Origin: Antedon mediterranea | Lineage: Eukaryota; Echinodermata; Crinoidea; Comatulida; Antedonidae | NCBI RefSeq assembly: GCF_964355755.1 | Contig: NC_092680.1 | Location: forward strand, 3,883,001 to 3,947,000 | Direction of reading: 5' to 3' | DNA: 64,000 nt | Shown: piece after piece, positions 13,238-63,648 of the stretch | Position numbering within the stretch: the stretch's first letter is position 1 | How the letters are laid out: each line of letters begins with the position of its first letter | Made by a program: the position numbers and the translations under genes | The notes under the pieces: generated by a model | What the model was told of the DNA's origin: nothing | What the model saw: only the letters and a program-made list of their open reading frames with translations | Database searches by the model: none

Positions 13238-14042
13238 ATGGGGGAGCTTGCTAATCGTTTGGCAGTTTTGCAAGCACTGTTCCAGCAGTATGACACAGAC
13301 AATTCAGGAGAACTTACACCAGTACAGCTGCAGGCATTACATTCAAGCCTACGATTTGGTGGTATTAGCCTTTCACAGGTACAGTAAAAACAGAAGTGGT
13401 GACAATCAACCATGCAAATGGAAATTTCTTTCGGTACAATTGACCATTATTGAACCATATGTTTCATGAGGGTAGCCCACCCAGAAAAGCTGATTATTAG
13501 GGCACTCGAAACACATTATTACCATGTATCTACAGGGCTGTAGCCAGCATGAAGTTTTCAATTTTCACTACCCACCCCAATTCCCCAACAGAGATTGGCA
13601 TAAATATATTAATAATATTATATTTAAAGCATCTTTGCCTCGTCTGTAGCCCTTGATCTAAAGTTCGGCTAGTTCTCAATCTCTGTGCTGATTGACAACA
13701 AAGAGGGAGCATGGTCGAACTTGGTTGGTTGACTGTTCCAGCATGGTCTACCATGCCTCCACACCAAATATTAACTATCAACACGTACCTCTAGCCTAGT
13801 ACTTCCCCCTGGATGTTGTTGGCTGTTGGTTCATTCTTTATTGATTACACATTTCTACCATCACAGGTAAAGGCTGCCATGTGCTACACATGTATGTGCG
13901 ATGATATTTCTTGTGAACTGGATGAACTGTTTGATGCTCTACAAGAGTTGGACAGACGTTATTTCTTGGTTCAAGACTTCCGCTGGGAATTCTCGCTTCT
14001 TGATGGGGACCAAACGGATTTTATACGCGAGGATCAGGCAAA
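13238..14042 (+). other. N-terminal EF-hand-like exons 1-2 of the coiled-coil gene
   Basis: Exon 1 (13238-13378) encodes a helix-loop-helix with DTDNSGELTPVQ, whose positions 1, 3, 5 and 7 are D, D, S and E. Exon 2 (13867-14042) encodes a Cys-containing helix and a second loop, DGDQTDFIREDQ. The position-12 bidentate Glu is Gln in both, so calcium affinity may be low or lost. The 488-bp intron between them holds a non-coding stretch whose minus strand is open by chance (13530-13784). Confidence 0.6.
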
Positions 14043-29358: not shown

Positions 29359-29401
29359 GATTACTGTTTTGTTGTTGTTGTTACACTGTAGTTAATATAC
29401 C
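29359..29401 (-). other. 5' UTR part of the first coding exon of the myosin light chain gene
   Basis: Minus-strand acceptor TTTTTTGTAG|G places the exon start at 29401; the following 43 bases contain a CAACAACAACAAAAC stretch before the ATG. Confidence 0.55.
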
Positions 29402-32613: not shown

Positions 32614-32677
32614 ATGGAAATGATATTTTATTTTTCAATATTGGTTCTATTGACAGCATTTTTTCAAGTAACCGACA
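32614..32677 (+). other. signal-peptide exon, SRCR-adhesion GPCR 1
   Basis: Encodes MEMIFYFSILVLLTAFFQVT, a typical secretory leader, and ends in phase 1 at an A|GTAAGA donor. This ATG was chosen because it gives a hydrophobic leader joined in frame to SRCR1. Confidence 0.75.
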
Positions 32678-35301
32678 GTAAGAGTTTCTTTTTAAATTTA
32701 AATTAATCTATTTAGTTAATAATTTTTAAAGAAGAACGTTTGAATATTAATTTTGTCCTAGTGTTTTTGTGTCATTGTATGCTAAAATAATTAATTTTAA
32801 CGAAAAAAAGTTATATTTGTTAATATCACGAACTTGTATAAAATAATCAATGTTGATTGAACGAGTTGCACTGTGCATTTATATACTCCAAAACGTTCAG
32901 AATTTAGGATGAAATAAATATTTATATATAGGACGACGATTAGATACCTGACTATAACGCTAAAGCTTGGTTCCCACTAGAACGTAACGCAAGGACGTTA
33001 ACGCAACGCAAGCGTTTTAACCATGACAAGCGAAGTTATAGACAGTTAGCAATCACAAGCGAATAAGCCATTGCTTGTGATTGGTCAATTCACTTGCGTT
33101 GCGTTACGTCCTTGCGTTGCGTCGCTAGTGGGACAGGACGTCGACAGGAAACCAGCCTTTAGTTTACACTAGGATGCGTAAACCTAGGTAGGGGTCCGGG
33201 ACCGCGACAGAACGAGAACGGATGGGGACCCTCTTTTATCTGTCTTGAGTGGTATGTGCACTATATAAATATTGTTATTAATATTTGTTATTATTAACGT
33301 AAAAGTAATTTGAACAATCACAAGCGATGGATTATTCGACCTTATTTGACCAACTCTCTTGCGTTGCGCTTACGTCGTTGCGTTTGGTCCAAGGTAGAAC
33401 CAAGCTTTTAGGCGGTAAAACACAATTGGAAGACTTTGGTTGGTGAACTTCAGATCTCCTGCAGTACTTTACCCAACTGAATTTTATAAAATCCACCATC
33501 TTTAGCATTTGTATCTTACAGGTCGAACATTAAAATTTTACAACACAACATCCTCATATGGTTATCTCGAATTAACGCATAATGGAACGTGGAGGTATGT
33601 CTACGATCAAGATTGGGATTCTATAGACGCACAAGTTGCCTGTAAAGAATTGGGCTATGCTGGTGTAATAGAGGAAAACAAACCTATGAGAAGTTCTTCT
33701 ACAGACAGTGGAAAAATTGTCAACAATTTCAGGTGCAGTGGAAAAGAAAAATATTTAAGGCAATGTCCATATGACTTTGTAGTGGCATCGGCTATGACGT
33801 GGCATCGTGTTTACCCAATATGTGTTCCGATCCTTACAGGTATGATAGCATAGCTTATTTCAAAATGTTAATTTAAACATAAGTTATAATAATAAATAAA
33901 AAGTAGTTTTAATAGCAACCTAATGTGTTTGTCTTACTCTAAGTCTGGAGACATGTACTGAATACTCAGTACATCTTCGAATACATAAAGACACAGCATT
34001 ACTTTTATTGGAAACTGTTGTTGATATACTAAGCATTAAGTTAACTCTGCCTAATTGATGTAATGATTATACTCAGTACATCTTAAAATACAAAAACACC
34101 GACGTACTTAGGATTTTATTTATTACAAAATGTTCTTGATATAGTAAGCATTAGGCCTAATTTAACTCTGCCTAATCAAAATTAATTTTATCATTAATTG
34201 TGCTCCGGAAAAAGACAATACAAACATATAGAGAATTTACTTCACAGCTGAAAAATACTTGCGATTCCATCCATCTGGATCAGAAATAACAAATAGATAT
34301 TGGGGAACGGTTGAGATTTTATATGACAACAGCTGGAAACCTATTCGGAACACGGGTTGGAATATAACAGAAGATATTGTAATCTGCCGACAACTTGGCT
34401 TCATAGGTGCTATAACCGGTAATCATACAAATAATACGCCTGGAAACCGCCACATAGAACCAGTCTTTGATTCCCTGAGATGTAACAGTACTGAAGACAC
34501 CGTACTGGAATGTCAACATGGAGAATGGTTAAAGAATAGTTCTAACGGAAATGCTGCTAATGTTACTTGTATTCCACTTTATAAATGTAAGATAAACATG
34601 AATTTATTCTTTCTATTCGTTAATCTTAGGATTTGTTTTTAGGGTAGATTTTATGCCAGCATCATGAACATATAGCACGTCCATATTGAAAGATGGTACT
34701 GTTTTACCTTCATAAATTTTATATATTTATTAGGCTAGATGAAAATGGTTTTAATCACGTCAGAATAATAATATTAGTTAATAAATGGACGAAAGTATGT
34801 AGTAAGTATTTTAAAGTGGTGGAAGTTTATTTGATTTCTATCTCTTTCTCCTTCAATGTAATGGGTCATCCACTATTAGATCTAAGTTTTTCTCAAGTTT
34901 GAATTATTGTTAATCAACAGCTGAAGAAAATGTACAGTTTCGATTGCTACCACAAGATTCTAGAATGACGTACGCGGGCCGTCTTGAAGTGAAGTACAGT
35001 GTTGGAGACATTTGGGGCAGCGTGTGTAACACAGAGGTGGACATACAGACGGCAGATATAATCTGTAGTCAGCTAGGCTTCTTTCAGGGACCAGTAGACA
35101 TAACGAATTATGCAGAATACGGACAGGGAACCGGGTACCATGTCTTTCAACAATTGAAATGTACAGGCAATGAGAAGAATCTGAAAGATTGTCAATTCTA
35201 TGAAGTCATAGATAGGTGGTGTCTTCATGACAATGACGTAGCCGTGACGTGTATTCCAATGACTGAAGGTCCAACAATAATTATTATAGATTCATTTTTC
35301 T

Positions 35302-35337
<36 letters not shown>

Positions 35338-38300
35338 GTTAGAATATTTTTGTGCAAATTATTTATACATTTTTATTTTTCTATTTTATCTCCACATTAA
35401 AAACCACAGAAGCAAAGCCAAACATGACTATCAAACTTGATGGTAGTACGCACTTCTACGAGGGATATGTAACAATGAAGTACAGTGACAGTACTGGTTA
35501 TGGCACTATTTGCAGCCGGGGGTTTACCAAGACTACTGCTGATTTAATTTGTAAAGAGTTGGGATTTACTAAAGGTGCCTTCAAATGGTACGTGAAGGGG
35601 AAACCATCATGGGTACCCTCAACTGGTATCATTATGATGAGCAACATTGATTGTGATAACAGTGCAACTAAATTGATTGACTGCAGATACAGTAAGCCCG
35701 GTAATTGCACTCATGCAGAGGATGTAGGCGTCGTTTGCATTCCAATAAAAGAGGGTAAGTTTCTGTGACGACGCTTAAGGTCGAAATTCGGAGGAACTAT
35801 CAGTAGCGCGATAAACATTAATGTATTAAGATCAAACAAAACTGAGCGATACTTGGAAACATAATAAAGATAGCAACACATGTAATTTTATCTGCCACTC
35901 CAGCACACATATAAATAAACCAAATCTAAACTTACGTAAATGGTTCTGAACTGATACAAACTACCAGATTAGCTTATAGCCTTCATAAAGGAAGGAGATA
36001 TTAATATGTCCTTTTATATTCCTGTTGCTTCGTATTATGCAGATTATAAGACAATGTTAAATGACGGCAAACCGGGAGGCTACGAAGGAAAAGTTGCAAT
36101 TGGAAATGCAGACGAAGTTGTTTACCTCTGCCCTGATGACTGGACTAGGTACGAGTCCTCTGTAGTTTGCAGTGAACTGCAATTTGCCGATGTACTGTAC
36201 GAAGAAAAAAACCCTTGGCAGGACAAAGTAAACCTATCATTCCCTGAACTGATTATTACCTTTGACTGTTATGATATGCAGACTAGTCTGTTTGACTGTC
36301 GGCTAATATTAAAAAACAGCACAAATTGTCAGACGAAGAAAGGTGTACGCGTTGAATGCGTACGTCACCTTCCAGCATTTTTTAACGAGTCGGCAAACAC
36401 TACTGACATATTAGAGAATGTTGACGCTTTCTTGAAAGAAACAAGTTTAGCCGGAAACCTGACGTCGGGAAGCTTTGGTTACTTCGGTAATATAACGATT
36501 CATTACCTATTGCATGCCTTAAATAATGTATGAAAGGTAGTAGTAAAGTAGTGTGCTCAGGATACCAATGATGGGATGATTTTAAGACCACAATTCTTAC
36601 TTTGGTAACGTAACCCAATAGTTAAACAATTACTGAAGAGGAGTTCCCACAGGCATAATATACATTTGTTTTGTATTCGCAGATCAAGAGGTTCACATAT
36701 ATCCTCTATGAAGTCACGCTATACTGTTTTTAATTTTATTATATCATTCGTCTTTCGATCAACTTTATTCACAGTATTTGTCAATTTCGCTTAATAGACA
36801 GACCTTCAAACAATGCTGCTAGTGTATAGCACGGGGTCTCTACTTCTTTTAGGTCAAACGCAACAACATGAACAAATATAGACGTGTTTATAATTCTTTA
36901 AGATGACCATCAACAAACTAAAGTAATTTATACAAAATAATAAATCATATAAACTGATTTTTCAGTCGTGGATGCTCCAACAATGAATGATATGAAAACG
37001 CTAGAACTGCCGTTTGGTGATCCACTTCAATATGAATTTGAAGAGAATTTGGAAACACAAATATCCAGTAATGGTTAGTAGGTCTACGCAATTTTCGGCT
37101 TTGTTCTCACTTTGGAGGCAACGGAAATACCTAAACGCAACACAAGTGAGTTGGCCAAACATGACACGATGGATCATTCAAACAGCACTGTCGCTTGTGA
37201 TTAGTCGACTCACTTGCCCTGCGTTGCGTTTATGCGCAAAGACGTAAGTAGCAACGCAAGCAAGCAATCAACAGTTATGGATTATTCGAACTGGTTGGTT
37301 GTGATTGGTCAATTTTCCTGCGTTGACTTACTTTTTTCGAGCGTCCTAGTGAAAACCAAGCTTAAATGGAGACCAAGCTTTATAATCACCTTTCATCATC
37401 TTCATAATCATCTAGAATAACATTATCATAAACATAAATCGTCAACAACGCATCATGTTGTCGACGTCGTCATAATCATTATTGTCATCATTATCAAATT
37501 GAAAACAATCATCGTAAACATTTTACGATTGCAAAGCCTAGTCTTTTTACATTGGCAAATTTTCTCGACTGACTTTGTCATGAAAATGTTTCCAAAAGTT
37601 GCTGTAGTGTAGGCAAGTTGACAAACTTCGCAGAACTACAGAAAGCAAGTTTGCAGAAGTCTACACTAGCAACGAATTAGCAAAAAATCTCGAGCAAACC
37701 CCGATTCTCAACCTGTAATTTTAACCAGTTGACTAATAGTAGGTCTAATTCGTTGACGATTGTAACTCGTAACGTAATGGCGAACGGTTTACGATTATAA
37801 CCCATAACGTTACCGTTTACGGATGTTTGTTGTTGTTTTTTCAGAAGCAATCCAGTCCACTTCGTCCTACCTATTGTCGCTTGAACTTGCTAAATTAAAC
37901 TCTTCGGATCAGGTACCCGTTGCTGAAACTAGCGATAGGTAATATTTAATATTATGATAAACTAAAAATAAATATTTATATTTGGGTGTTTTATAGTATT
38001 CATATTATGGTACCGTATTAGCATTTTTAGCCATTCTTTCAAATAGACTAGAAGTTTTTTTTACAAGTTCAATCAGCCTTCATTTTGATTTCAAGTAGAT
38101 TCCAGCTCCAATATTACATATGACACGCCATGTTTACCAAAATCTGTTTTACGAGGCATTATAGGTTGTCCATGGCATAACAAGAAAAGTATACTATGTG
38201 AATTATAAATAGAAGTAGGTAACGTTGGTAATGTCTCAAAGTTTCGATTTTTGCCAACTATACAAATAACTTTACAATATATTTTTTCTTTAAAATTTAC

Positions 38301-41300
38301 AGTATAAATGTATATGCGTATCCAATTTCACCAATATTTGGCTTGGACCTTTTCACATCAGGCGGAAACAAAACATCAACAAAAACGAGTTTTATTTTTC
38401 CTAAAACTATTGTGAGTAATCACGGTCGAATTTATACTAATAATTATAACAGAGGCAATAGAGGCATCCCCTATAATAGATAGCGAGTACTGTAAATAGA
38501 TAGTGATCATGTTAGTTGACTATGCATTATGTAACTGTAGGAAGATAGCTTACCTATTTTCTAAATTAACTTAACCTCTAAATATATCTCTTAAAATAAA
38601 AGAAAAATAATATTTATTTTCTATTAAAACAAAATCCGAAGAGCTTCGAACCACCAGAGCTAGAGCTAAGAGTACTCAACGAGCATTACCTGTTATGCCA
38701 CAAAGATACTAGTACGTGACTGAATAGTTGGCAATAGTCTATACTTATACGTGCTTTATATTACGTCATTCTAGTCGTTACGTCATAAATATGCATTAGC
38801 CATTGAAGCCGATTTTTAAGTACAGACAAACCCACCTAAAACTTGTAAATCGAATCTGGATAGTTGACATTTTAACAATACCATAATTATCGTAGATGAT
38901 TATTTTAATTGTTTTATGATGTAAAAATATCATCATCGGACAAAAATTGCCAAACTAAACTCAAACGCATGCGCACAATAAATTAACGTCACGTCACATA
39001 GGTCCTAAAAGTCGTCGTAAATTGAAAGCGGTTGATAACCGAACCGAATAAATTGTAACTAGCTACATGTTCTCCTTTTTACATAACATTGTTGGAACAC
39101 TCTTTCAACAACATAGTTTTTGGATGAAAGATATAAATTGATTTATTTTAGATACTGCCGTTTGAGGTGTCAGATAAATCGAAATTGGTCAGTGAGATAA
39201 TGTGCATGTACTTTGACTATTTAAAGAGGTAATAATATATGCATATTGTATATGATCATGATGGTAATCATCATCATCATCATTAGCATTATCAATATCG
39301 CTATATCGTTATTATTATCGTTATTGTTATCGCCGACGTCGTCATCATCATCGACAACATTGTAGACAACATGGAAAAGAACACGTAACGTTGAGTTTTT
39401 ATTTTCAAACTGCGTTCCAAGGCAGCATCTAAAGACAACAATATTTGGAAATTTGGGGCTAAGACAAACCCACCCTGCCCCTGACAGAAGAATGGCATAA
39501 CCAATCATGCCATATGGCTCTGATAGTTAGGTGGTACTATTAAAAACCAACATAGCCATCAATGCACAGAATGTACTAGGCATATTGTATTATGTATTTG
39601 TAGCTCATGGTCAACGGGAGGGATCGTCACTGCTATAGATGTAAACGGTTCAGTAACATGCAAGAGTGAACATACAACAAGCTTCTCAGTGATGATGCGA
39701 GTTACAGAGGTAGGTATTGGAATAGCAGGCGTATGCGTAATAGTGGTATGTTTACGTTATTCCGCCGGTAATACGTAATACCGGTACTGTATACGTATTA
39801 ATATAACATATATATACTTTAAGTAATACCGTATGCATACGTTACGTACCGGTATATATATGTTACGTAACACCGGTAATACATACGTTAAATAATACCG
39901 TATGCATATGTTACGTAATACCGGTATGCATACGTTACGTAACACCTGTAATGCATACAGGTTACTTAATACCGGTATTACATAATTGTGTTAACCATAA
40001 TGTATACGTAATACTGGCATATGATAAACGCAATGCTAGTTTTAACAGGGAATTTGACCCTTCTCTTGTATTAATAATGATCTGGATATTATGACTTAAA
40101 ATTAATTTAATTAACAAAAAATAATGTTCTACAGTAATAAACTTCGTAATAAATGTACCGTTGTAAATGTTTGAATTAATAATATATAATTACTCATCCA
40201 TTCTTTAAATGTTTTTACAAATGGAAACACTGCTTTAATCACAATTTTCTTTTTATAGATAAAGGATACGTTTTTTCAGCAAGTATTAAGCTTTATGTCA
40301 AGTGCATTACTTGCCGTGTCTATTGTGATGTCAATACCAACTTTTGTAGTTTTAATTTACATTAGGTAAGACTGGTACTCAATATTGTTTAGTTGTCAGT
40401 GATGGTCCTAATAATGCATAACAAGTTTTATTTGATAGACTAGAACACACTAGGAAACGTTACCCTTTTTTTGTGTTGCAAAATCGGAGTTTCCCCAAGT
40501 TTGCAAACTGAAGTTTGACTCCTGCACGCTTGTTTTCTGCTGTTTCCCGAAGCTTGTCAACTGGTCACCAGCAAACTTTTATCGGGAAAACTCAAAGTGC
40601 AAACAAAAAGAAAAACTTGCCGGTGTAGTAGAAATTTAACCATAATTCTGTTGGAAAAAGTTGTCGTTGTCTTTCAGAGAACTCAGATTTTCGACACGTT
40701 TCGTCATTGTTCGAAATACGATTTTGTGTGTTTGTATTCGAGACTGTTTGTTCATAGTGTCAAGCATGGTACCGGCAATAGACGTAAGTTAGACGTATCT
40801 TGAATGTGGTCTTACTCTGTGGTCGACCAATACTTCATGCTTGAGGTGATATTGTGTGTTCTTTTTCCTGAAAAGCGGACTCATGTGTATAACAAAGGAC
40901 ATTCGGAAGCAGGGAATAGAGTAGATTTTGTAGGATGGGATGGGGGGGGGGGGGGGGTGGGGGTTGTAGGATGGGGTGGGGAAGATTGGGGAAGGGTTAT
41001 ATGTTCTTAAATGCTATCGATGTTAATACTAAGCAGATTAGTACAATTTTGTCGTTTGTGTAAGTATATTTAAACTAGAAATAAATACATTAGTTTTGCT
41101 CTAATCATTTTAAAATTAGATTATGTGTATTGCAATCGGATCAATTCTTCACTACATGTCCATGTGTTCATTCATGTGGATGGTCATATGGTCAACTGAT
41201 ATTTGGCTAAAAATCACCTATCCTTATCGTAACCACGACGAAAATAAACGCATTTACCGTCCTCTGGCGTACCTTTCACCTGTACTCATAGTAGCAGTTG

Positions 41301-43766
41301 GTTTAGGAATATTCCAAGACGGTTATATAAGTAATGAGTAAGTTATCGCTTCCACAACATTTGTTTATCAGGTTAGTTAAACGTAGATAGATGCGGTATC
41401 ATGCCTTTGTAGTATCGCTTCTCTTTCAGTAACAGGCCTACCATAGCATATAACACTATTAACTTAACTCTAAATAATCTTTCGCTATTTCAAAAATACT
41501 ACTCTTGAGGTTTGAACATTGAGAATATATTAACAGATATATGTTATATTTCATGATCTAAATTATTTACATTGTTAATTTGACGTTGTATTTTTTAAAA
41601 TGTTATCGACTAGAATTGACTAGAATTCTAACTTTTCTTTTGATATAATTATTGAGTAACCAAAAAAAATGTGATTTGCCCATATATGGACATGATTATG
41701 TCATATCACAACCATATTTAAGCATATCGCTAACAAATTTGTGCACATCACACTTTTTTTTGTCAAACTAGTTTGATAGTGTAAACAGAGCTTTACTCTG
41801 TAAAGTTGAAATATTCGTTTTATTTTAGATGTTGGCTTGACATACAGAGTGGTTCTATTTACCTTTTCTTCATACCAGTCATCATTTGTATCATGGTTAG
41901 TATACGGTATATACCCATGGTATATCTTTCATATATTTTTAGACAGGCCTATTGATGAATTGCTTGAAACATTTAATTTGGGTTATAATCTCGACATAAT
42001 GCTTGTTTGCACGATAATGTCCACAATCTTCAAGTTTCCTCTGTCCTAATTGGAAATAGGTATCAACACACTATGTCTCCTGATTTTCAGAAAATTGTTG
42101 TTGACGTCACAAGACTCGAGTTATCTGTATCTTCAATATGGGAAAAAATAATTAAATAGCACGCCCTCTGTCGATCTTTCCCCTTGATTTATTATTTGGA
42201 AGGCCTATTCTTTACATTTGCTTTAATGTCTCTTTATTCTGTTTTTAGGTAATAGCCTTCGAATTAGTCTGTGTGGCATGGAAGACCTACAGAAAGTCAC
42301 AGGGAGCTATTCATCCTGCACATGTGCACACTAAACTGGATAATACACTGTGTGTTACTTAAAACCTTACCCGACATGTTTTATATTTGAAGATATGATT
42401 TGGTCTTTTCTTGTCATAATACTACTTTTCTTTGCGAGTTTTTTTCTAATGTGGTTCACAATTTATATCTTACTATGCATCATTTATGAGGATTTCATAC
42501 CAATCTCTTCTTCCAAAGAAAATTTGCAAACTCTAATCTTAAATATATAGAATACTTCTCCAACGACAATACATTTTTGAGTTATGGAGCATGGTGCATA
42601 GTGCAAACACAAGCAACAAGAATATTACATTATTCAACATACGTTGCATGAAACCATAAATAGATTTCCGTATATACTCAATGAAGGACTACTATTTTAT
42701 ATCATTTTGGTTAATCCCAGAGTTACCTTTTACTCTTACTCCTCGAATGAATTTCACCTATTGTCTTTTGCTAGGAACATAGCCAAGAAATTCCTACCGT
42801 TGTCCGTGGTTCTTGGCGTGACTTGGATCATCGGAGTATTAACCAGTATTCGAGGAACTTTAATATTTGACGTCATTTTCGTGTTGAGCAACAGCACACA
42901 GGGGGCCGTTATTTGTCTTACCCAGTGCCTTTTCAGCAAACAGGTTTGTATTTTTCTCTTCTTGTTCTCACGGAAAATTATTCATGAGCTTTAACAAAGT
43001 GGGCGGAGCTTACCGTGAAATTCCGTCGTCTTAACTTTTTGAGAACGATTATAGTTTCCATTTTTCCGTTTACAGAGAATGACTAAAAATAATGTACATA
43101 TAACCTTAAATATACAGTTCAATCAAATTACACTTAAATAATAAATAAATAATAATTGAAATTCTAATTTAATTGTTTAATGAAATAACATTTTTATTGT
43201 GTTATATTATTTTATTGTTTGGTAAAGTCTCTGTTGACGAGACGACCATGGCCAAGCAGATGATTCACATTTTTAGTTGCGTGGACGCGACTCAATAGTT
43301 CACTATGTCGGTCGGTCGGTCTGTCGGTCTGTCGGTCTGTCTGTCGGTCCGGTATCACTATGCGTTTTATCGCTTTTTTGTACTTTTTGAACTGTTTTGA
43401 TGTACAGAAAAGTTTTAAAGTACATTACTTTTTGAAAGTTCATTTTTTTCTGAGAGCACGCGACTTATGGCTGTTGGCCTTGTTAACACACAAGTTTGAT
43501 TCTGAATTCCCATTAAGCAATCTTTTCTGATCAAAGTTTCAGAATAATAATAAATAGAAACCGAACAAAAAGTAGTAGAAGGGCAACACTTTATAGCATA
43601 GTTTTTAAATTTAAAAATAATTTAAACTAAATCGATATGATTACGTAACAGTCTTGTTTGGTATACAGTACATTAAATTCGTGTTTCGTTTACTGAAAAT
43701 AATTATTATTTAAATTTTCTACAGGTTAGGAAGGCATTCAAAGAGCAGAAAAATCGCCGGAAATAA
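32614..43766 (+). CDS. SRCR-adhesion GPCR 1 (18 exons, 1,053 aa, 5 SRCR domains)
   Basis: Exons: 32614-32677, 33522-33839, 34248-34586, 34921-35268, 35410-35754, 36043-36486, 36966-37073, 37845-37938, 38303-38411, 39152-39228, 39604-39709, 40259-40365, 40678-40783, 41120-41337, 41829-41895, 42249-42349, 42775-42943, 43725-43766. The frame is unbroken over 3,162 bases. Order: signal peptide (1-21), SRCR1-5 (22 to about 590), GAIN-like region (about 590-784) with GPS, seven helices (785-1038), and a short basic tail ending RRK. SRCR domains are extracellular ligand-binding folds; the GAIN/GPS plus 7TM unit defines adhesion GPCRs, which signal through a tethered agonist after self-cleavage. Ligand and G protein are unknown. 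Two donors are weak: GTCCAA after 35268, fixed by the common domain end, and GTGTGT after 42349, fixed by phase and by the paralogue. Confidence 0.85.
32966..33164. mobile_element. MITE, family 1, in receptor 1 intron 1
   Basis: Begins AAGCTTGGTTCCCACTAGAA and ends in the decayed inverted end CTAGTGGGACAGG...AGCCTT, with TA on each side. The interior has TAACGCAACGCAAGCG, GAAGTTATAGACAGTTAGC and TTGTGATTGGTCAATTCACT. A partial right half of the same family is at about 33308-33412. Confidence 0.65.
33522..33839 (+). other. SRCR domain 1, receptor 1
   Basis: Shows the SRCR pattern G-x-W...ACKELGYAG...FRCSGKEKYLRQC...ICVP. Of the six group-A cysteines, C2 (replaced in WRYVYDQDW) and its usual partner C7 are both absent, while C3, C5, C6 and C8 are present. 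Exon phase 1-1. Confidence 0.8.
34248..34586 (+). other. SRCR domain 2, receptor 1
   Basis: GTVEILYDNSWKP...VICRQLGFIGA...LRCNSTEDTVLEC...VTCIPLYK. C2 and C7 are missing, as in the second domain of the paralogue at 46415-46744. Several N-x-S/T sequons (NHT, NNT, NST, NSS, NVT) suggest heavy glycosylation. Confidence 0.85.
34921..35268 (+). other. SRCR domain 3, receptor 1
   Basis: Complete group-A domain with all six cysteines: GSVCN, IICSQLGFFQG, LKCTG, LKDC, RWC and VTCIP. The exon ends at the domain end TEG with a poor donor (GAAG|GTCCAA). The next intron is only 141 bp and holds a (TTTC)n tract at 35297-35338. Confidence 0.85.
35410..35754 (+). other. SRCR domain 4, receptor 1 (single-copy counterpart of the nine-fold array)
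   Basis: Six cysteines: GTICS, LICKELGFTKGA, IDCDN, LIDC, NCTH and VVCIP. The FYEGYVTMKYSDSTGYGTIC segment aligns position for position with the TYEGLVQLSYVDNSGFGTIC segment of the nine repeated exons of receptor 2, so this exon marks the likely ancestral copy number of one. Confidence 0.85.
36043..36486 (+). other. SRCR domain 5 plus start of GAIN region, receptor 1
   Basis: The SRCR part has LCPDDW, VVCSELQF, FDCYD, LFDCR, NCQT and VECVR. It is followed by LPAFFNESANTTDILENVDAF, a helical linker. The exon is 444 bases, exactly the length of its paralogue at 54424-54867, and both end in SFGYFG. Confidence 0.85.
36966..39709 (+). other. GAIN region and GPS motif, receptor 1
   Basis: Five exons (108, 94, 109, 77 and 106 bases) encode a beta-rich GAIN-like region ending in the GPS: IMCMYFDY, W in SSWSTGG, VTCKSEHTTSF, then SVMMRVTE. 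The usual HL|T cleavage triplet is HTT here. Of the four classical GPS cysteines, the first and third are present and the second and fourth are absent. Intron 7 contains a family 1 MITE copy (about 37100-37362). Confidence 0.75.
37100..37362. mobile_element. MITE, family 1, in receptor 1 intron
   Basis: Decayed copy with GTTCTCACTTTGGAGGCAAC on the left, internal TTGTGATTGGTCAATTTTCC and a right end of CCTAGTGAAAACCAAGCTTA. Confidence 0.5.
39757..40025. repeat. ACCGGT/GTTACGTAA palindromic minisatellite in receptor 1 intron
   Basis: Irregular tandem units built from CGTAATACCGGTATGCATAC and TTACGTAACACCGGTAATAC. The words ACCGGT, TACGTA, GCATAC/GTATGC and TTACGTAA are themselves palindromic, so each strand can form repeated hairpins. 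It lies between the GPS exon and the TM1 exon. Confidence 0.8.
40936..41000 (+). repeat. G-run tract in receptor 1 intron between TM2 and TM3 exons
   Basis: GGATGGGATG followed by an uninterrupted run of about 15 G, then TGGGGGTTG, GGATGGGGTGGGG and TTGGGGAAGGG. More than four G-runs within 65 bases fit a G-quadruplex-forming sequence on the coding strand of a pre-mRNA. Confidence 0.6.
41660..41795. mobile_element. MITE, family 2, in receptor 1 intron
   Basis: The right end GTCAAACTAGTTTGATAGTG...AGAGCTTTA matches the right end of the copy at 4748-4908. The interior has CCCATATATGGACATGATTA and ATGTCATATCACAACCATA. The left terminus is eroded. Confidence 0.5.
43304..43353. repeat. (GTCG/GTCT)n microsatellite
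   Basis: Alternating TCGG and TCTG tetramers, about twelve units, in the last intron of receptor 1. Confidence 0.8.
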
Positions 43767-45283: not shown

Positions 45284-45356
45284 ATGTTACAAGTACAAGT
45301 ACTTCTCATCATGTTGATGGCTACTGTAACTTCTGGACATCTGTTATCAACAGATA
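45284..45356 (+). other. signal-peptide exon, receptor 2
   Basis: MLQVQVLLIMLMATVTSGHL with a phase 1 donor A|GTAAGT. It is clearly similar to the leader of receptor 3 at 62382 (shared MLMATV and the AATAAACATGTTACA start context). Confidence 0.8.
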
Positions 45357-54300: not shown

Positions 54301-57300
54301 AATAATTATAACGTGATACCTGCATTCTTGCAGTTTCTGATCACGTCCTCTAGTTTTACAACAATCAGAATAGTTAATATTTAAAGTTAATTTTTAAATT
54401 AAAGTATTTATTATTTCTTACAGAGTCGTTCGTTACATTTCTGTTTGGGAAATTTGGCTTTTACGAGGGAATAGTCTCCATTTATGATGGCAAAAACTTC
54501 AACCAAATGTGCTTGGATACTTGGGGTCGTTTAGAATCTGAAGTAATCTGCAGAGAACTAGGCCACAAAGCTGTACTATATTACGATAAAAACAAGCCGG
54601 ACCTGCCTGAGCCATATAAAAACCCAATCTTCAACTTCAATTGCAATGGTTCAGAGTCGTCTCTCATTGATTGTGTGACAGCACGTGATGAATCAGGTGG
54701 TACATGCAGACGAAATGACTATGTGGTGCGTGTGGAGTGTATACGTATATTACCGGATTTCTTCAACACCAGTGCTAACACGAGTGAACTGCTGTATAAT
54801 GTAGATTACTTACTTATAGATTCCGAGGAAGCGCAAAACCTGTCATCGGCAAGCTTCGGATATTTTGGTAGTAAACTGTTTATTATAGTACACATTATTT
54901 AATCATTCTCTCATTGCTGCATTTTTTTGTAATGTTGCTCTTGTGGACGGCAATGGTGCTACTTGTTGCTACCTATGCTACTTCTGTTTCCGACGATAGC
55001 GACCTAATCACTATGCGCGACGCGACTACGTAACTTGTAGGGCTATCAATCATAATGCGCATGCTCATAATTCTATTGAAAGTACTACTCGTTATTGTAC
55101 AAATTGTACAACAATGAGACTTATCCCATTTTTTAATATTCGTAGTTCGTTTTAAATATTTCATGTTAAGTTGTATGAATGACTAGCATATTTATATTTT
55201 AGTATACATTTTTTATTCCTTTCTAGTCATTGATTCACCGACCTCAAATGTCACCAATTCACTGGAACTGGTCAATTCAGAGCCGTTTATGTATACCTTC
55301 TATCCTGAACAAAATCAATTTTCAAGTACGTATTAGTCTAATGTAGTTGTAGTTGTATTTGATAGTTTGTGTCATCTAACATTGAACGGTCCAACGAAAT
55401 TAATATTTTAATACGACAGTTAAAACCCCACGAGGTAACACCTTCCATTCGGGACTCAACAAAGAATCCCTTTAAGTGTGTCGCAGGGGTTGGATTTAGG
55501 GTTAAACCATATTACCCTTTGTTTATTTCACGCGGAAAAGTGTCCTCTGAAAATAGGGATGTCCCAAAAGAGAGTTCCAATGTAGTAGAAAATCATGGTT
55601 GACTGATAGATCATTGACTTTTCAACAAGTCATGTCAACATTATTCTTTTTTAAATTACGTAGTACGTATTGTCACAATAACATTGATTAACATCGGAGA
55701 CTTGCCCTTGCTGTCATCGATAACCAATACAATCGAATTTATTGATTTATATTATTATAATAGATTATGAATTGGTTACGTCGTCTTATCTGATGTCAAA
55801 TAGTCTTACAAAAATAAATAAAACCGGTAAAGTTCCATTTTTGGAAGAAAGGTAAACAATAAAATACATCAATCAATCAATCAAAGTAACATTTATTTCT
55901 CTTATAATTTCATAATAAATAAAAAATAACAGTAAATAGGATTAAAATAAGAGGGGCAAAATTTAAAAAAAGCGAAGCTTGTATAGGCAGCCCATAAAAA
56001 GACAAAAAGAAAACAGGACAACATGGAAACCGGAAACATACATAAAATAACAACTTAAGCAACTAACATACTACTATACTTATTCTTGACTAGGATTGCT
56101 AAGTCAAGTTATATAAGCAAAGTAATTATTATTTTGAATATCATAACAATTGTGTATTTTCTTGTTTTGTCAGCTCGAATACACATATCTACGCATATGG
56201 AGGCATCTTTGGTTTAAACGTATACTCGCCACTTGGAGAGATGTTGTCTGCAAAAGCACGTTTCACATATCCCAGAAATTTAGTAAGTAGTATGCATTCG
56301 AGTTATGAAAGAGAAAAATATGTATGCAGAATTATAGTAACTTTAACATTTTTTTTAAATTTACGTTACAGACACTTCCGTTTACCGTTGATGTTCCTAA
56401 GGGTTCAACGTTTGAACCTATATGCACGTATTTTGATCCAATTACGCAGTAAGTAACTCCTATTCTAGTTGTTTTAAAAGTTACTTATTCATTGTATATG
56501 TTGTATAATAATTAATTAGTTAATTTAGTTTTTTGTTTTTTATTTGTAAATACATCGTATAACTATGATCAATAAGTAATGATTCAGTCTTTTAAAAATG
56601 TAAAAATGGTTGATATTGGGTACAGGGCACACCTTTTAATTAAGGAACAAACAGACACAATTTTTTATAATACATAATGTCTTATTAAAGATTAACTTAT
56701 ACATGAATTTACTTTTCAGACTATCATTAATGGGCTACATAGTTTCATCAATCAATTTAACCCCTGTGTTTCAGTATATTGTTTTAAAAGTATGCATTAT
56801 TCAAGCTAATCTCAACGAATTCCTTTGATATTTATTATTTTCCTGTTAGAATTTGGTCTTCGGAAGGTTTAATAACTGAAGAAGTAAATGGAACAATTAG
56901 ATGTGAAAGTGAGCACCTGACAAGCTTCTCAATAATGATGAAAGTTACAACACATCCCCAGGTAGGCATTTTTACCCTCAAGCGTGGCTCCCACTAGAGG
57001 TGCAACGTAACGACGTAGATTTAATGCAAGCGAGTTGACCAATGATTTTATTTTATTTTCAATATTGATGAACATTACAATGCATCCCTTTATTCAATAC
57101 AACATAGCAAAATATACCTAATATTAAATTTGTAACAATCATTTTAATTTCAAAATAATACTTTTTTGAAGAGCTTTTGACGATAAATGATTGATTACAT
57201 TTTCCCCAAATCGCATGGAATTAAAACTTTAAAAATAATCGCATCTAATTTAATGTGCTGTATTTGTAGAAAACATTCTGGGAGACGGTTCTTTCGGTTA

Positions 57301-60300
57301 TGACATATCTCTGTCTTGGATTATCGATATGTGTTTCCATTCCTACGTACATATCATTCATGTATATAAGGTAAGTTTTTGCCAAAGTCACCAATTCAAA
57401 CCAATATTGGCTGTAGTTGTAAAAAAAAAGGTTTGCAAACACGTGTTTGCTAAAGTTAGGTAGTATGTTATACTAGGCTACCAATGTTTAAAATACTTCT
57501 GTTTTATTGACTGAATTCACAAACCTCAGAAAATAAGAAAAGTCCACGACCTAACGTTTGCAAACTAGTTTTCTGGTCTGCTGCAGCAAACTTTGAAAAC
57601 CTTTTCTTGCTCAACTCAGAGTTTGTAAACTAAAGTTTTCAAGTGTAGACTAGGCCTTTATACCTACTGTAGGCTGTACAATAATATTAATGTATTGTTT
57701 GGTGTTTACCAGGAAAGTCCACGTTTTCTGGTCTATTGTAGCAAACTTTGGAAAACTCAGAGTTCGTAAACTAAAGTTTACTAGGCCTGCTTACCTAGAT
57801 TGTACAATAATTTCAATTGCTCAATTTTAGGAAATGATACCTTAGAATTGGTGATAGAATTGGTGAATATGATTGAGTACGTACGATGTAGCATTATTGT
57901 TTGTCCATAATAGATATTTGTAATACTAACTAATTGTCTTATTGTAGGTTAGTATTGGTAAATAAAACCATATCATTATATATTACTGTTTTTTTAATTC
58001 TTCAGAACGCTTCGTTTAAATACAAGATTTATCATCGTACGAAACATTGTACTTTCTGTTTGCTTAAGAGATCTTATGTTTCTTTTTACTGATTTCGTCA
58101 CGAGTTTGGCAAGTAAGGTTAGTTGAAAACATTAAATACTGTATAAAAAAGTGTATCCAAATCAGATTACACTTCAAAAGTAGTACTAATGGTTTTTAAA
58201 AGAATAAACAAAAATGACCACTTTTCGTTATGCGAATGGTCTGATTATATTTATATTGGTCTGTATGTATGACCTCTACAGATTTATATTAAACTATTTC
58301 ATGCCACCACAATTGTAATACGGATTGTTAAATACTTTCACAAATACAGTTCACACAAATTAATTCACATTACACATTGGAGAATAGAAACAAAAATGTT
58401 TGTTCAAATGAAAATACTATTTTGGTGTAATACTAGTCACTAGTTTTACTAGTACTATAATATATTTACAATTGCAGCCATCGTATCTTTGTGAGGTCAC
58501 AGGTGCACTACTCCAATACATGAGCACGTGTGCGTTTCTCTGGATGTTATGCGCATCGACTGACATATGGTTGAAAGTTCACTTTCCATATTTTAACCAC
58601 GCTAACAATATATACTTCTATCGTTCTCTATCATACATATCCCCAATGTTTATTGTCTGTGCGACAATCGGAGGATTTAGAAGTGGATATGTTGATGAAA
58701 ACAGGTAAGTGTGTATAATGTAGTTCATTAAATGTTATTTTTCATAGCATTTTTGTTTATAAGTTTACCTATTTGAATAATATATACCAGTCCAACAATT
58801 ACCTAATATGAAAACCACTTGAACAGATTGTTTTCTTCCATTCCAGTCATTATGCCAATCGTTCTCAACATTTTACCAATCTTTGTGAGAAAATGTTATA
58901 TAATTATTATTTTCTGATTTTACCTTTATTTAGCTGTTGGCTCAGTATCACCAGTCAATCTATGTGGGTTTTTTACTCGACTGCGATAGTTCTGATTGTA
59001 GTAAGTATTATTGAGCTAAACTAACGATTATTTTAACCTAAAGAAATATCGCCAATTATTATTAAAAAAATACTTTTTTCTCCAATCACGTGTAATAGGA
59101 GACTTGGTTTACTAGATAGTGATTAGGTTCGGTTTTTGTTAATAATGTTTCTATCTTCATCGTATTTTTCTGTATCGTTTTGAAATAACTAAATAACAAG
59201 CATCTTTCCCAAAGGCACATACAATATGGCGTAATTAATTCTACAATGCGTATAGTATAACATGACAATCAATTCGATCAATTTCATATATTCATCAACC
59301 AAATATTTTAAAGTTCAAGAAGTTTAACTTTATTTATCTACGGTGGCTCAGAACAACACAGGGAGGTAAAAAACATTTTGATGTTTTTCAGCTTATTTCG
59401 ATAGAGTTAGCTATGGTGGCATGTAAGACGACTCAAGCGCTCAAGAATTCTGTGCAGCCCGCGAACATAGCATCAACGAAGGATCCAAAACAATCCAGGT
59501 ACCTATTTTATCTATTTTATCTATTTAATTTCTTTAAGCACATTGTTCTTATTTTGATTTTTAATTTATATTAGGAGCGCTAATATACAAAGGATATCAT
59601 AGCTTAATTGTGATTGCCTACTCCTTCTTTAAAGATGTATTGTTCCCCAAAAAACATGAAAATGAAGATTAATAAAATTAGACTATGAATAGGTTATTTT
59701 GTAATTTTAATAAAGTTAATCACTTCCGTAGGGAAAAAAACTTTTATTTATAAGATAACATAATAAATGGTTAAATTCAACAAAAAAATAATTGGCTGGC
59801 AGCCAATTTGACCTTTTTTGTTTATTTTTACATTTTCTTAAAGATGGGTCTAAATAAATGTTTGATTAGATCCAATTTTTGGTCAAAGTGGATAACTATT
59901 ATGTGACATTAAAATGGCATATTCAACAACTAAAAAAGTAAAAATTATTTTTCGTAAGTTTTTAAGTACGCTATGCAGTTATATAAAATGAACTGATAAG
60001 ATTAAGTGTTGAAGTAAGCCTAATTGATCCGAGGATCTACCGTTGGGATCAGGGGATCAGGCCATTATCCGCATGTGCATTGCGCTACCTACAAAACTTC
60101 ATAGGTTCTAAAATGATTTTACTACTTTGTAATGACTTGCACCTTTACGTGTGTATACATGTGTCTTTATTAATGTATAATGGCCTCCTCTTTCGTATAG
60201 AAATATGGCCAAGTCTTTCCTACCGTTGCTGGCAGTTTTTGGTATCACTTGGATTCTGGGTATTTTTCTTGTTATCGGCGGCACCATTATATTTGATTTA

Positions 60301-60817
60301 TTATTTGTTATTGTTAATGGTCTCCAAGGTTTCGTTCTTTTCCTTTCTCAATTTCTTTTTAGTAAACAGGTAAATATAAATTAATATTTTTTTTTTAATT
60401 TGACAATGTTATTGCTATTTCAAGCCTATGCTGTTTGTTCTTGAATTCGAGTGTTAATTAAGAGAACCACATTAGGTAAATCTTTTCATAACTGGAACTC
60501 ATAAATACACTATATAATTTCAACTTTAGCATAGACCTACTAAAAACTGTTGAGCCAAGGTAGTACATTACCATTTGTTATTAAACTGAAATTGTCTAAT
60601 TAACCGTCTTATATGAGGTATATAATTACTTATTTTTTGTTTCGGTAATATTTTCAAAAACATTTTCAATGAGATCATGAAGTAAGTCTTTAAACAAAAA
60701 CTAGATTTTTATTTTAAATTTTGAAATAAAAATTAAATGTTTATTTTAAATTTTGATACTAAGGTACATAATGCTTGGACAGAAAGCAAAGAGCGTGCAA
60801 CCACAAGGACATTATAG
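45284..60817 (+). CDS. SRCR-adhesion GPCR 2 (27 exons, 2,053 aa, 14 SRCR domains)
   Basis: Exons: 45284-45356, 45794-46102, 46415-46744, 47219-47563, 47835-48167, 48347-48685, 49482-49814, 49987-50319, 50518-50850, 50999-51331, 51482-51814, 52295-52627, 53294-53626, 53866-54201, 54424-54867, 55227-55325, 55764-55851, 56174-56282, 56372-56448, 56850-56961, 57270-57370, 58006-58117, 58478-58704, 58934-59000, 59392-59498, 60201-60369, 60764-60817. The frame is open over 6,162 bases. Layout: signal peptide (1-24), SRCR1-3, nine near-identical SRCR4-12 (353-1353), SRCR13, SRCR14, GAIN/GPS (to 1775), seven helices, and a 17-residue tail on the last exon. It has the same architecture as receptor 1 with the fourth domain multiplied. 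A surface receptor with a repeated ligand-binding stalk is expected; ligand and signalling are unknown. The last exon has a plausible but less certain acceptor (ACTAAG|GTA). Confidence 0.85.
45794..46102 (+). other. SRCR domain 1, receptor 2
   Basis: Unlike the first domain of receptor 1, it has all six group-A cysteines: LPVCFT, VACKSFGF, YNCTG, LSDC, VECAE and LICTA. It is closest to the receptor 3 exon at 63343-63648 (shared RLQT, DWLPVCFTS, FGFIDFD and LICTAIEL). Confidence 0.85.
46415..46744 (+). other. SRCR domain 2, receptor 2
   Basis: GRLQLKYNNVWGPVFNKNWG...VACRQLGFIGV...IKCQS...LHKCEHGEWG...LTCMPMYK. C2 and C7 are both missing, as in the orthologous domain of receptor 1, and the CEHGEW/CQHGEW block is shared. 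Confidence 0.85.
47219..47563 (+). other. SRCR domain 3, receptor 2
   Basis: GRLDIKYSTDEKWGSVCND, FICTKLGFFQGA, LFCSG, LIDCK, KACDH and IQCVP: six cysteines. It is the counterpart of receptor 1 domain 3. Confidence 0.85.
49040..49240 (+). mobile_element. repeat with hammerhead-like core, copy 2 (Penelope-like candidate)
   Basis: CTGATGA at 49080-49086, stem GGGC/GCCC, GAAA at 49103-49106, then GCTCTGC, GTTTTGATTTAGC, GTATCTCCATTGAGATCC and AGTAATTTGCCTTT. It is the same block order as the minus-strand copy at 22085-22300. It sits in the longest intron of the SRCR array (48686-49481). Confidence 0.5.
50905..51860 (+). repeat. recent 483-bp segmental exon duplication
   Basis: The segment from about 50905 to 51387 is repeated from about 51388. 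The two exons start 483 bases apart (50999 and 51482), and the preceding introns are almost identical, including TAAACTAGCCTGTGTTGGCT and AACGAATATCTTTATATCTT. Differences are scattered single bases and a 1-2 base indel in the T/A run. Confidence 0.9.
53866..54201 (+). other. SRCR domain 13, receptor 2 (diverged array member)
   Basis: Alignable with the array (YEGLVRLSYFDGSGFGTICG, VICREIGFYKGAYSFSLG, LIDC, ECTHADDVSVVCIP) but clearly older: 336 bases, FTDG start and VKG end. It was probably the first duplicate, or the boundary unit that escapes homogenisation. Confidence 0.85.
54424..54867 (+). other. SRCR domain 14 plus start of GAIN region, receptor 2
   Basis: YEGIVSIYDG, MCLDTWGR, VICRELGH, FNCNG, LIDCV, TCRRN and VECIR, followed by LPDFFNTSANTSELLYNVDY and SFGYFG. 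Same length (444) and junctions as 36043-36486. Confidence 0.85.
55227..56961 (+). other. GAIN region and GPS motif, receptor 2
   Basis: Five exons of 99, 88, 109, 77 and 112 bases. The GPS reads PICTYFDP, IWSSEG, TIRCESEHLTSFSIMM, with a canonical H-L|T cleavage triplet. As in receptor 1, the second and fourth GPS cysteines are absent (serine at the fourth). Sequons NVT and NKT occur in the first two exons. Confidence 0.8.
55852..56060 (-). mobile_element. retroelement 3' end in receptor 2 intron
   Basis: (ATCA)n at 55868-55884, then AAAGTAACATTTATTTCTCT. On the minus strand this is a non-LTR type 3' end with a (TTGA)n tail, followed by A-rich non-coding sequence with GAAGCTTGTATAGGCAGCCC. 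Confidence 0.4.
57270..60817 (+). other. seven-transmembrane region and tail, receptor 2
   Basis: TM1 57270-57370; TM2 58006-58117 (TRFIIVRNIVLSVCLRD); TM3-TM4 58478-58704 (YMSTCAFLWMLCASTDIWLK); loop Cys-Trp and TM5 58934-59000 and 59392-59498; TM6-TM7 60201-60369 (KSFLPLLAVFGITWILG; FVIVNGLQGFVLFLSQFLFS). The final exon 60764-60817 gives VHNAWTESKERATTRTL and a stop. TM2 to TM7 exon sizes match or nearly match receptor 1 (112/106, 227/218, 67/67, 107/101, 169/169). Confidence 0.85.
59628..59960. mobile_element. palindromic AT-rich MITE, second copy
   Basis: Starts TTAAAGATGTATTGTTCCCC and includes GTTATTTTGTAATTTTAATA, GGCTGGCAGCCAATTTG and GACATTAAAATGGCATATTC. Related to 20793-21070 and 61310-61520. 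Confidence 0.5.
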
Positions 60818-60960
60818 GGCCCTCATTAAAGAAATACGATGAACTGGAGGACAGAAATCAAAGAGCGTGTAAAAACTAGACACTTTTAGCGGTCTTATTG
60901 AAGAAATACTTTAACTGGCGGACAGAAATCAGAGAGTGTATGGCCACAAGACACCGTAAT
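60777..60960 (+). repeat. 71-72 bp tandem repeat overlapping the receptor 2 stop codon
   Basis: Units start with GGACAGAAA at 60777, 60849 and 60920 (the last is partial) and contain CAAAGAGCGTG and AAGAAATAC. The last 14 codons of receptor 2 are encoded by the first unit, and the remaining units form the 3' UTR. Confidence 0.75.
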
Positions 60961-61050
60961 AGAATAATTTACATTCTTGCAAATAGAAATAATCTATATA
61001 TAAATAAGCAAGTAAAAAATTTACCGAATATCGTATTCGTAGATGGTTAC

Positions 61051-61114
61051 AGCAGGGAAGAGTTAATTTTAACTCTTCCCTGGTTACAGTTACAGTTACA
61101 GTTACAGTTAAAAA
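61051..61114. repeat. perfect hairpin plus (GTTACA)n hexamer tract
   Basis: AGGGAAGAGTTAA pairs perfectly with TTAACTCTTCCCT across a two-base loop (61054-61081), and the copy of GGTTACAG on each side extends the pattern. It is followed by five GTTACA units. It lies 240 bases after the receptor 2 stop. Confidence 0.7.
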
Positions 61115-61309
61115 ACAAACCATCGTTCATTTGAATTAGTAGCTCTCCGACATAAATCAGAATCTATTAGGAGTAGGCGGAATTAGAGAACATACTTTTT
61201 AAAATAAATGGAGAAGTTGTAAGATAAGATTTAAACGATTTAGTGTCTCTGTGACGCATGTGGCGTATCAGTATGGAAAGGGTAAACAAAATGAAACAAA
61301 TATAAAAAT

Positions 61310-61520
61310 GTATAATTTAAAAATGAAGATTAATTAAATCCGACTTTAAATAGGTTATTTTGTAGTTTTAATACAGTTAATCACTCTTGTAGAAAAAAAA
61401 AAGAACAATGTTTTTACTAATAAAATGACAAAGTAAATAACTATTAGTGACATTAAAATAGCATGTTGAACAAAAGAATGTGTTAAGAAGTCTTCTTTCA
61501 GGGGGATAATATATCTTTAA
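61310..61520. mobile_element. palindromic AT-rich MITE, third copy
   Basis: GTTATTTTGTAGTTTTAATACAGTTAATCAC and a right end of AGGGGGATAATATATCTTTAAG match the 59628-59960 copy; the left end is truncated. Confidence 0.45.
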
Positions 61521-62381
61521 GCTACTTTTATTTCTTAGATTCGTATTACTGTAACGTACCTATATTTTCTATTTAATAATTTAGTAAATTGTATTGTAAA
61601 CTTTAGAAAAATACTTTATTTTAGTAATTTACATTTATTCTTAATGAGTAAAACTAAGAATAAAAACATGGACATTATTAAGCTCAACTAACTAGGAGAA
61701 TTGAAAACCTTGCTATAATATGCGCATCCGTATTCATATTTCCATCTATTTTTTGGCAATTTGAAAAATGGACATCAAATTAGGAATGTTGCATTCGTGC
61801 AGATAAGTTAGCCTAGTCGAAAACAAGGTTTAGATTAATGTACTACTATTAATTGTTGACTCAGATCAAGAATTGAAAACAACATCGACAACAAGTCGTC
61901 GTCAGGCTTTTCAATTCAACATAAATTGTATCTTAGACGACAACCACAACGTATTGTACACGTAGCAACGTAAACATTGCAGGTCAACAATTTAAATTTA
62001 TTAATAGTAATTAATTATTAATTATAGTCTATAGCCTAATGATCAGTATCGTATCATATTTCATTTCGTAACGATTGAAGAATCGTACTAAAGACTAATT
62101 GTCTACTATTGTTGATTTGATTTCATTGTCATTAATAAAAACTAAACGATAGCTATTGTTATACTGTAGGCCTATATTAAATTTATAAGCAAGAATTGTA
62201 ATTATCTTATCCAAGATGTAATTTCATCAAAGAATGATAGAGTGCCGACGTGCCCTTTGTCAATTGCAGTATTACTATTTAATACAATAGTTTAGGGTCG
62301 TATATTTTATTTCGCTAGTGACCATTGCCGAAACAGTTGTGGAAAGGTTAGACCTAAGTGGATACCATACATGAAATAAAC

Positions 62382-63648
62382 ATGTTACATATTATACAAA
62401 TTCATCTCGTCATGTTAATGGCTACTGTGATATTTGGAGATCTGTTATCATCAGACAGTAAGTAGTAATAGTAAGGTCTCCCTTATACTAATTTTGAATA
62501 TCAAGAGACGTTTTAATAAGCTTTTACAAATGTTTTACTTGGTGCAATATTTTTTTGTATTTCGATGTTTTTTAAGGGGCAACTGACTTTTTGAGTTATA
62601 GTAATTGTTTTGCTTTAGTTGCCCCTGACCATTGTGCTTTGTTTCTGTTCTGTATCTGTTTATTGGTCGAATAAATAAATGAAATGAAATGAAATGAAAG
62701 TCCAACTATTTGAAAGGTGCTAGTTTCACGAAAGTTACTATAGATTGTGAACATTTAGTTAAAGTTACTTTAAAGACAGACTTACATTTAAACAACTATG
62801 TGTTCTGAAATATAATATTTATTATTTGAAGTCGTTACCAGTTACATTGAACTACTACTAAGAATAAATAATTGTGGTATAGGCCTATTCATTCATTCAT
62901 TTATTTCATTTCGGATAGTACATCCATATACAAATCATACAAAACAGAGAAAACAAATCACCAGGAAATAACAGTGGCAACTTCCACAAAAACAACCTAC
63001 AGTATCCCAAAAATCAATTTGCACCAACGCTGATTGGATTGTTGATTATTATATTAACAACTATAGGCCTATACTATGAACAACTGCCATGAATTCTGTT
63101 CTTAAAAGGTCCTCCAATATTCATAGAATTCAGTGTGGTTCCCACTAGCGACGCAACGTAACATAACCCTACGACGTATTGCGTAATCACAAGTGTGAAC
63201 CGAGGACGCAACAGTGTTGCAAACATCGCAATTTGATTTCACGCAGGCGGGGGCAAACGCAGTTATTGGAAGGGCATTTTCCTACGTTGCGTATGTTGCG
63301 TCGCAAGTGGGAACCAAGCTTAAACTGTATACATGCTTATAGATGAGACCAGGCTTGTCAACGCAGACGATCACCAGTATAGAGGACGTCTACAAACACT
63401 AGTGGATAGTGACTGGTTACCGGTCTGTTTCACAAGCTTAAACGACAAATCTGCCAAAGTTGCGTGCAAGGGGTTTGGTTTTATTGACTTCGACAGTTTT
63501 ACAAAAGTAGAGGTGGCTCAAATAGCGAGTGAGACAGAAGTGTACGATTGTAATGGGTGGGAACGTATGCTCAGCAGATGCAGCACGAAAACTAAACGAA
63601 ATGTTCAGTGTGACAAAATTGAACTTATTTGTACAGCTATCGAATTGG
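62382..63648 (+). CDS. SRCR-adhesion GPCR 3, 5' part (signal peptide and SRCR1; runs off the window)
   Basis: Exon 1, 62382-62457, encodes MLHIIQIHLVMLMATVIFGD and ends in phase 1 (A|GTAAGT). Exon 2, 63343-63648, is a complete group-A SRCR domain: GRLQTLVDSDWLPVCFTSLN, VACKGFGFIDFD, YDCNG, LSRCS, VQCDK and LICTAIEL. The frame joins correctly (76 + 306 bases, ending phase 1 at G|GTAAAG). Both exons are closest to those of receptor 2, so genes 2 and 3 are likely the younger pair. The expected SRCR2 exon is not within the remaining 352 bases. It is inferred to be another receptor of the same architecture; the 7TM part is outside the window. Confidence 0.75.
62560..62700 (+). mobile_element. non-LTR retroelement 3' tail in receptor 3 intron 1
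   Basis: GGGGCAACTGAC...GTTGCCCCTGACCATTGTGC, then GGTCGAATAAATAAATG and a (AAATG)n tail, the form of a SINE or LINE 3' end in the plus orientation. Confidence 0.4.
63125..63325. mobile_element. MITE, family 1, in receptor 3 intron 1
   Basis: The left end GTGGTTCCCACTAGCGACGC and the right end CGTCGCAAGTGGGAACCAAGCTT are inverted repeats. It ends 17 bases before the acceptor of the SRCR1 exon, so the insertion lies against the splice site. Confidence 0.65.

Follow-up and report, generated by a model that had tools for sequence, protein, structure and literature searches.

Probable adhesion GPCRs with multi-SRCR ectodomains form a tandem family in the crinoid Antedon mediterranea

The locus described here raises the question of whether exons for SRCR domains and exons for a GPS motif and seven transmembrane helices, found one after another on the same strand, encode single receptors and, if so, what such receptors might bind. 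The window, by which we mean the whole stretch of DNA that was analysed, comprises 64,000 nucleotides with ~33% GC (C11:3883001-3947000, in a genome of 354 Mb with 11 large contigs). In a six-frame reading, SRCR exons were detected at 33.5-36.4 kb, 45.8-54.8 kb and 63.3 kb; within the window, GPS and seven-helix exons come after the first two of these sets.

For the three genes, termed G1, G2 and G3, exon cores were delimited by comparing the proteins of G1 and G2 and the conserved nucleotides of G2 and G3; a small dynamic programme picked GT/AG sites whose phases agree. Individual splice sites are predictions that may be off by a few codons. Three exon ends in G3 were fixed by homology to G2, signal-peptide exons were called by eye, and tail exons were located by conservation, that of G1 being tentative. 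The features are as follows, in window positions:

32614..43766, + strand: G1, complete gene; 18 coding exons, 1053 aa, 5 SRCR domains, GAIN/GPS, 7TM (gene model and Pfam)
32614..32677, +: G1 signal-peptide exon (MEMIFYFSILVLLTAFFQVTD); gene model, by eye
33522..35754, +: G1 SRCR 1-4, single exons 33522-33839, 34248-34586, 34921-35268 and 35410-35754, phase 1-1 (model and Pfam)
36043..36486, +: G1 exon with SRCR5 and the conserved segment into the GAIN region (LPAFFNESANTTDILENVDAFLKE...); gene model
36966..39709, +: G1 GAIN/GPS exons 36966-37073, 37845-37938, 38303-38411, 39152-39228 and 39604-39709 (model and Pfam)
inside 39668-39688, +: G1 cleavage motif HT↓T (arrow, cleavage point)
from 40259, +: G1 seven-helix exons 40259-40365, 40678-40783, 41120-41337, 41829-41895, 42249-42349 and 42775-42943 (7tm_2, 5.8e-23)
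43725-43766, +: G1 tail exon (VRKAFKEQKNRRK), tentative, by conservation
45284..60817, +: G2, complete gene; 27 coding exons, 2053 aa, 14 SRCR domains, GAIN/GPS, 7TM (model and Pfam)
45284..45356, +: G2 signal-peptide exon; gene model, 82% identical to the G3 exon
45794..47563, +: G2 SRCR 1-3, exons 45794-46102, 46415-46744 and 47219-47563 (model and Pfam)
47835..53626, +: G2 SRCR 4-12, nine near-identical single-exon domains, 81-94% aa identity
53866..54201, +: G2 SRCR 13; model, 96% nt identity with G3 SRCR5
54424..54867, +: G2 exon with SRCR14 and the conserved segment into the GAIN region; gene model, G2/G3 comparison
55227..56961, +: G2 GAIN/GPS exons 55227-55325, 55764-55851, 56174-56282, 56372-56448 and 56850-56961 (model, conservation, Pfam)
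56911-56931, +: G2 GPS, EHL↓TSFS
57270..60369, +: G2 seven-helix exons 57270-57370, 58006-58117, 58478-58704, 58934-59000, 59392-59498 and 60201-60369 (7tm_2, 3.3e-27)
60764..60817, +: G2 C-terminal tail exon (VHNAWTESKERATTRTL, stop), conserved with G3 72752-72805
62382 to window position 72805 (C11:3955805), +: G3, whole gene; 19 exons, 1165 aa, 6 SRCR domains, GPS with HL↓T, 7TM
62382-62457 and 63343-63648, +: G3 exons inside the window, for the signal peptide and SRCR1; gene model

A preliminary description of this DNA had reported three same-strand paralogues that begin with a signal peptide and SRCR exons, and the models bear this out, with three unbroken frames in tandem on the plus strand. 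Two of the genes, G1 and G2, are complete with GPS and seven helices, as had been stated; G3 is complete too, in DNA that extends ~8.8 kb beyond the window. The bounds previously given to the cluster turn out to be the initiator ATG of G1 (32614) and the splice donor that ends the SRCR1 exon of G3 (63648). All three genes share one layout, made of signal peptide, SRCR array, GAIN region with GPS, seven helices and short tail in a single open spliced frame. Their SRCR exons are of phase 1-1 throughout, and the intron phases from GAIN to TM7 follow an identical series (1,1,2,0,2,0...). No fourth copy was seen in the 31 kb downstream of G3, and a genome search found no close copy outside the cluster.

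Domain content was examined with Pfam, and calls were judged against the curated cut-offs. SRCR stretches are present in the three proteins (5 in G1, E = 5e-80; 14 in G2, 2.3e-228; 6 in G3, 1e-93), together with a GPS (PF01825) directly before TM1 (25.7, 26.0 and 24.2 bits in G1, G2 and G3; cut-off 22.5) and a near full-length 7tm_2 domain (PF00002; 81.9, 95.8 and 97.6 bits; cut-off 20.6). These three domains are as reported in the preliminary description. GAIN subdomain A (PF16489), a search for which was proposed there, had no Pfam match in the G1-G3 proteins; the region from SRCR to GPS is conserved across the three genes. Chance is excluded by the E-values and because the same order of exons and the same phases recur in all three genes. 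The SRCR superfamily pattern has 6 or 8 cysteines, and the PF00530 domains found here have 6 in 21 of 25 cases and 4 in the other 4. An AlphaFold prediction of the last SRCR exon, made from two sequences, gave a pLDDT of 36. The nearest solved structures are ADGRD1 (E 4.2e-28, with G2), ADGRL3 and ADGRE5, and the best of these alignments spans the GPS, the tethered agonist and all helices; TM6/TM7 and the TM3-ECL2 cysteines are kept.

The continuity of the SRCR and 7TM parts was examined at their boundary. In each of the three genes, a single exon encodes the final SRCR domain as well as the segment that leads to GAIN, and the 45 residues that follow the SRCR domain in frame are identical at 41/45 positions between G2 and G3 and at 27/45 between G1 and G2. 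In a nucleotide comparison of G2 and G3, the sole conserved blocks from the last SRCR exon to TM1 are the five GAIN/GPS exons; from that exon to TM7, the conserved blocks are exactly the model exons, with no further block detected that might supply an independent stop or another signal peptide. For the G2/G3 comparison, dN/dS lies at 0.16-0.31 in all parts (SRCR1-3, 0.26; last SRCR domain and following segment, 0.16; GAIN/GPS, 0.26; 7TM, 0.26), and the pair is under purifying selection. These ratios and the shared exon fit one functional protein, and the three genes look real and functional. Altogether, the fusion of an SRCR array to a GPS/7TM adhesion GPCR, proposed in the preliminary description, is well supported at the genome level by spliced frames, phases and Pfam matches, and we consider it very probable that G1, G2 and G3 are a family of adhesion GPCR genes in tandem, each with an ectodomain of several SRCR domains.

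Four cysteines are common in the GPS of adhesion GPCRs, which make up family B2, and they are not strictly defining. In G1, G2 and G3 only two of the four are found: C1 and C3 are kept, while C2 and C4, which would be disulfide partners, are missing (WSSEGLI...CESEHLT). An adhesion GPCR with C-type lectin and HYR domains, at C1:33.04 Mb, has a two-cysteine GPS as well. The cleavage site and tethered agonist read HL↓TSFSIMM in G2 and G3; G1 deviates with HT↓TSFSVMM, and HT↓T occurs in further GPS motifs of the same genome. Self-cleavage, as previously suggested, is thus plausible for G2 and G3 but doubtful for G1. From the loss of GPS cysteines in all three genes, HT↓T in G1, the very short tail and the absence of the cation-site aspartate pair from every SRCR domain (see below), one might argue that the fusion is real but yields an uncleaved adhesion or decoy protein with little signalling, a degenerate GPS and an SRCR array that serves as structural glue. 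This explanation seems, however, unlikely: HL↓T and the tethered-agonist sequence TSFSIMM are kept in G2 and G3, purifying selection acts on the 7TM exons (dN/dS 0.26), and TM6/TM7 and the TM3-ECL2 cysteines are conserved.

If the genes encode signalling receptors, the nature of the ligand can be approached through the SRCR aspartate pair, a common functional feature that is not required for membership of the family. From the SRCR consensus CDDxWD, we take this pair (D1019-D1020 in SALSA/DMBT1) to lie directly after the first cysteine of our alignment, and both aspartates were found at that position in 0/25 SRCR domains of G1-G3. In SRCR8 of SALSA/DMBT1, D1019 and D1020 help to hold the cations that bridge to the ligand, and mutating either one is enough to abolish binding; in CD6, the same SRCR surface binds protein without calcium (PMC7043408). 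Given the absence of the pair and the CD6 precedent, a protein ligand would be more likely than a polyanion for the G1-G3 arrays, and the polyanion sensing suggested in the preliminary description loses weight. A role in pattern recognition, in which the canonical SRCR cation site would engage polyanions of microbes, would agree with the binding of anionic ligands by SRCR domains in general (PMC7043408), and also with the response of sponge SRCR genes to microbes and the expansion of SRCR genes in echinoderms (PMC6208332). We find such a role quite doubtful here, as none of the 25 domains has the pair, yet SRCRb of a second SRCR-7TM locus, on C7 of the same genome, keeps it.

A tentative mechanism for signalling receptors with a protein ligand would be as follows. 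The GAIN domain would cleave itself at HL↓T in G2 and G3, and less certainly in G1, after which non-covalent contacts would keep the SRCR array on a 7TM part whose first residues are the tethered agonist TSFSIMM. The array might bind a cell-surface, matrix or microbial protein, and a pull or conformational change upon binding would free the TSFSIMM peptide, which would enter the helix bundle and lead to activation of a G protein. The SRCR array would thereby be the fast-changing recognition part (5, 14 and 6 copies) and the 7TM region the constant signalling part.

Two neighbouring units of the G2 array are 95% identical, intron included, and the nine-domain array is the product of tandem exon duplication; G3 has one unit of the G2 SRCR 4-12 type. 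Mean dS within the G2 array is 0.31, versus 0.30 for the 7TM exons between G2 and G3, which places the growth of the array at about the time of the G2/G3 duplication or later, unless the copies are homogenised by gene conversion. A speculative extension, to which we give little credence, is that these genes represent a subclass of SRCR adhesion GPCRs with a two-cysteine GPS and no cation site, whose arrays grow and shrink by exon duplication; array length would tune a Ca-independent recognition or force sensor and would possibly vary between individuals.

The SRCR-GPS-7TM exon order recurs at C7:23.83-23.84 Mb and C3:33.42-33.43 Mb. At the former (C7:23826001-23846000, minus strand), tandem repeats of paired SRCR exons precede a canonical GPS and 7TM, and at the latter one SRCR domain precedes GPS and 7TM. 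Unlike G1-G3, these loci have 1 or 2 SRCR domains and canonical GPS cysteines, and they belong to separate 7TM lineages. At C3:7686001-7706000 (minus strand), CUB domains, a long Thr/Asn/Pro-rich repeat, GPS and 7TM were found; this is apparently a CUB adhesion GPCR with several tandem copies within a set at C3:7.59-7.72 Mb. The gene at C1:33028001-33058000 (minus strand) has, in order, a C-type lectin domain, several HYR repeats, the two-cysteine GPS and adhesion-GPCR helices; interspersed with its exons is a non-LTR retrotransposon-like open frame of >1000 aa. No SRCR domain was found in the stretches read at C1:33.04 Mb and C3:7.69 Mb. In a tree of ~130 columns, the window family and the C3:7.6, C7 and C10 genes form a clade (bootstrap 100) whose inner relations are weak, the placement of C7 having a bootstrap of 63. 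The presence of CUB in the C3:7.69 Mb gene and SRCR in C7 suggests ectodomain swapping on related 7TM modules. The recurrence of the exon order at two further loci bears as well on the least probable alternative, which invokes secreted multi-SRCR proteins interleaved with SRCR-less adhesion GPCRs and misjoined by our models: SRCR genes are plentiful in the genome (at least 150 exon matches), but this reading is most improbable and we reject it, since the conserved G2/G3 blocks are model exons only, with neither a second signal-peptide exon nor a conserved stop exon between the SRCR and 7TM parts, the in-frame segment after the last SRCR exon is conserved in all three genes, and intron phases agree among the paralogues.

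Other features were observed in and near the window. An open frame at 11935-12381 (+) has a signal peptide and an extremely His/Tyr-rich tail (HHYYHPYYRHY...), with no Pfam match. Exons of a coiled-coil protein lie at 13795-23386 (+), one with a dynein heavy-chain stalk-like stretch (KPPRVVHQVMIGTYLLLGNKEK); their pieces, joined by hand, gave no Pfam match. A short tandem repeat array at 15317-15882 (-) is open in several frames (GHPYYG / ITGDIH / SILRGT) and apparently occurs again 84 kb away, at 99476-100650 in extended window numbering. Exons at 27943-29391 (-) resemble myosin regulatory light chain and have EF-hand matches in Pfam. Elsewhere in the genome, at C7:2285068-2320980 (minus strand), 11 near-identical tandem GPS exons in 36 kb mark a recent expansion of another GPS gene.

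In SRCR adhesion GPCRs, G-protein signalling is coupled to a recognition module that many invertebrates have in greatly expanded numbers. With complete structures for tandem genes whose arrays comprise 5, 14 and 6 domains, and with SRCR-7TM genes at three loci of the same genome, ectodomain shuffling on an adhesion-GPCR chassis can be followed exon by exon. The genes also offer constructs for testing HL↓T versus HT↓T, and SRCR domains with versus without the cation site.

The best solved relative of the GPS and 7TM part is human ADGRD1 (GPR133), whose GPS segment is CRCTHLT, compared with CESEHLT in G2; to our knowledge, ADGRD1 has no SRCR ectodomain. The preliminary description knew of no adhesion GPCR with an SRCR array, a statement that fails for animals as a whole. 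In the sponge Amphimedon queenslandica, Aq712029 and Aq715659 are adhesion GPCRs that, like G1-G3, have multiple SRCR repeats; they were reported in 2014 and are known from domain diagrams (PMC4302439). An adhesion GPCR of a chordate, the amphioxus Branchiostoma floridae, was reported in 2008 to have SRCR in its N-terminus, as G1-G3 do, and the passages on it describe no array (PMC2246102). In the starfish Acanthaster planci, 7tm_2 is among the commonest partner domains of SRCR (Table 1 of a 2024 study, PMC10855680); the combination is that of G1-G3, listed as a domain type in a text without mention of GPS. SRCR adhesion GPCRs are hence a kind already known. Possible novelty lies in how many SRCR copies the genes have, in the record at the level of exons, in a two-cysteine GPS combined with a lost cation site, and in the existence of several SRCR-7TM lineages in one genome.
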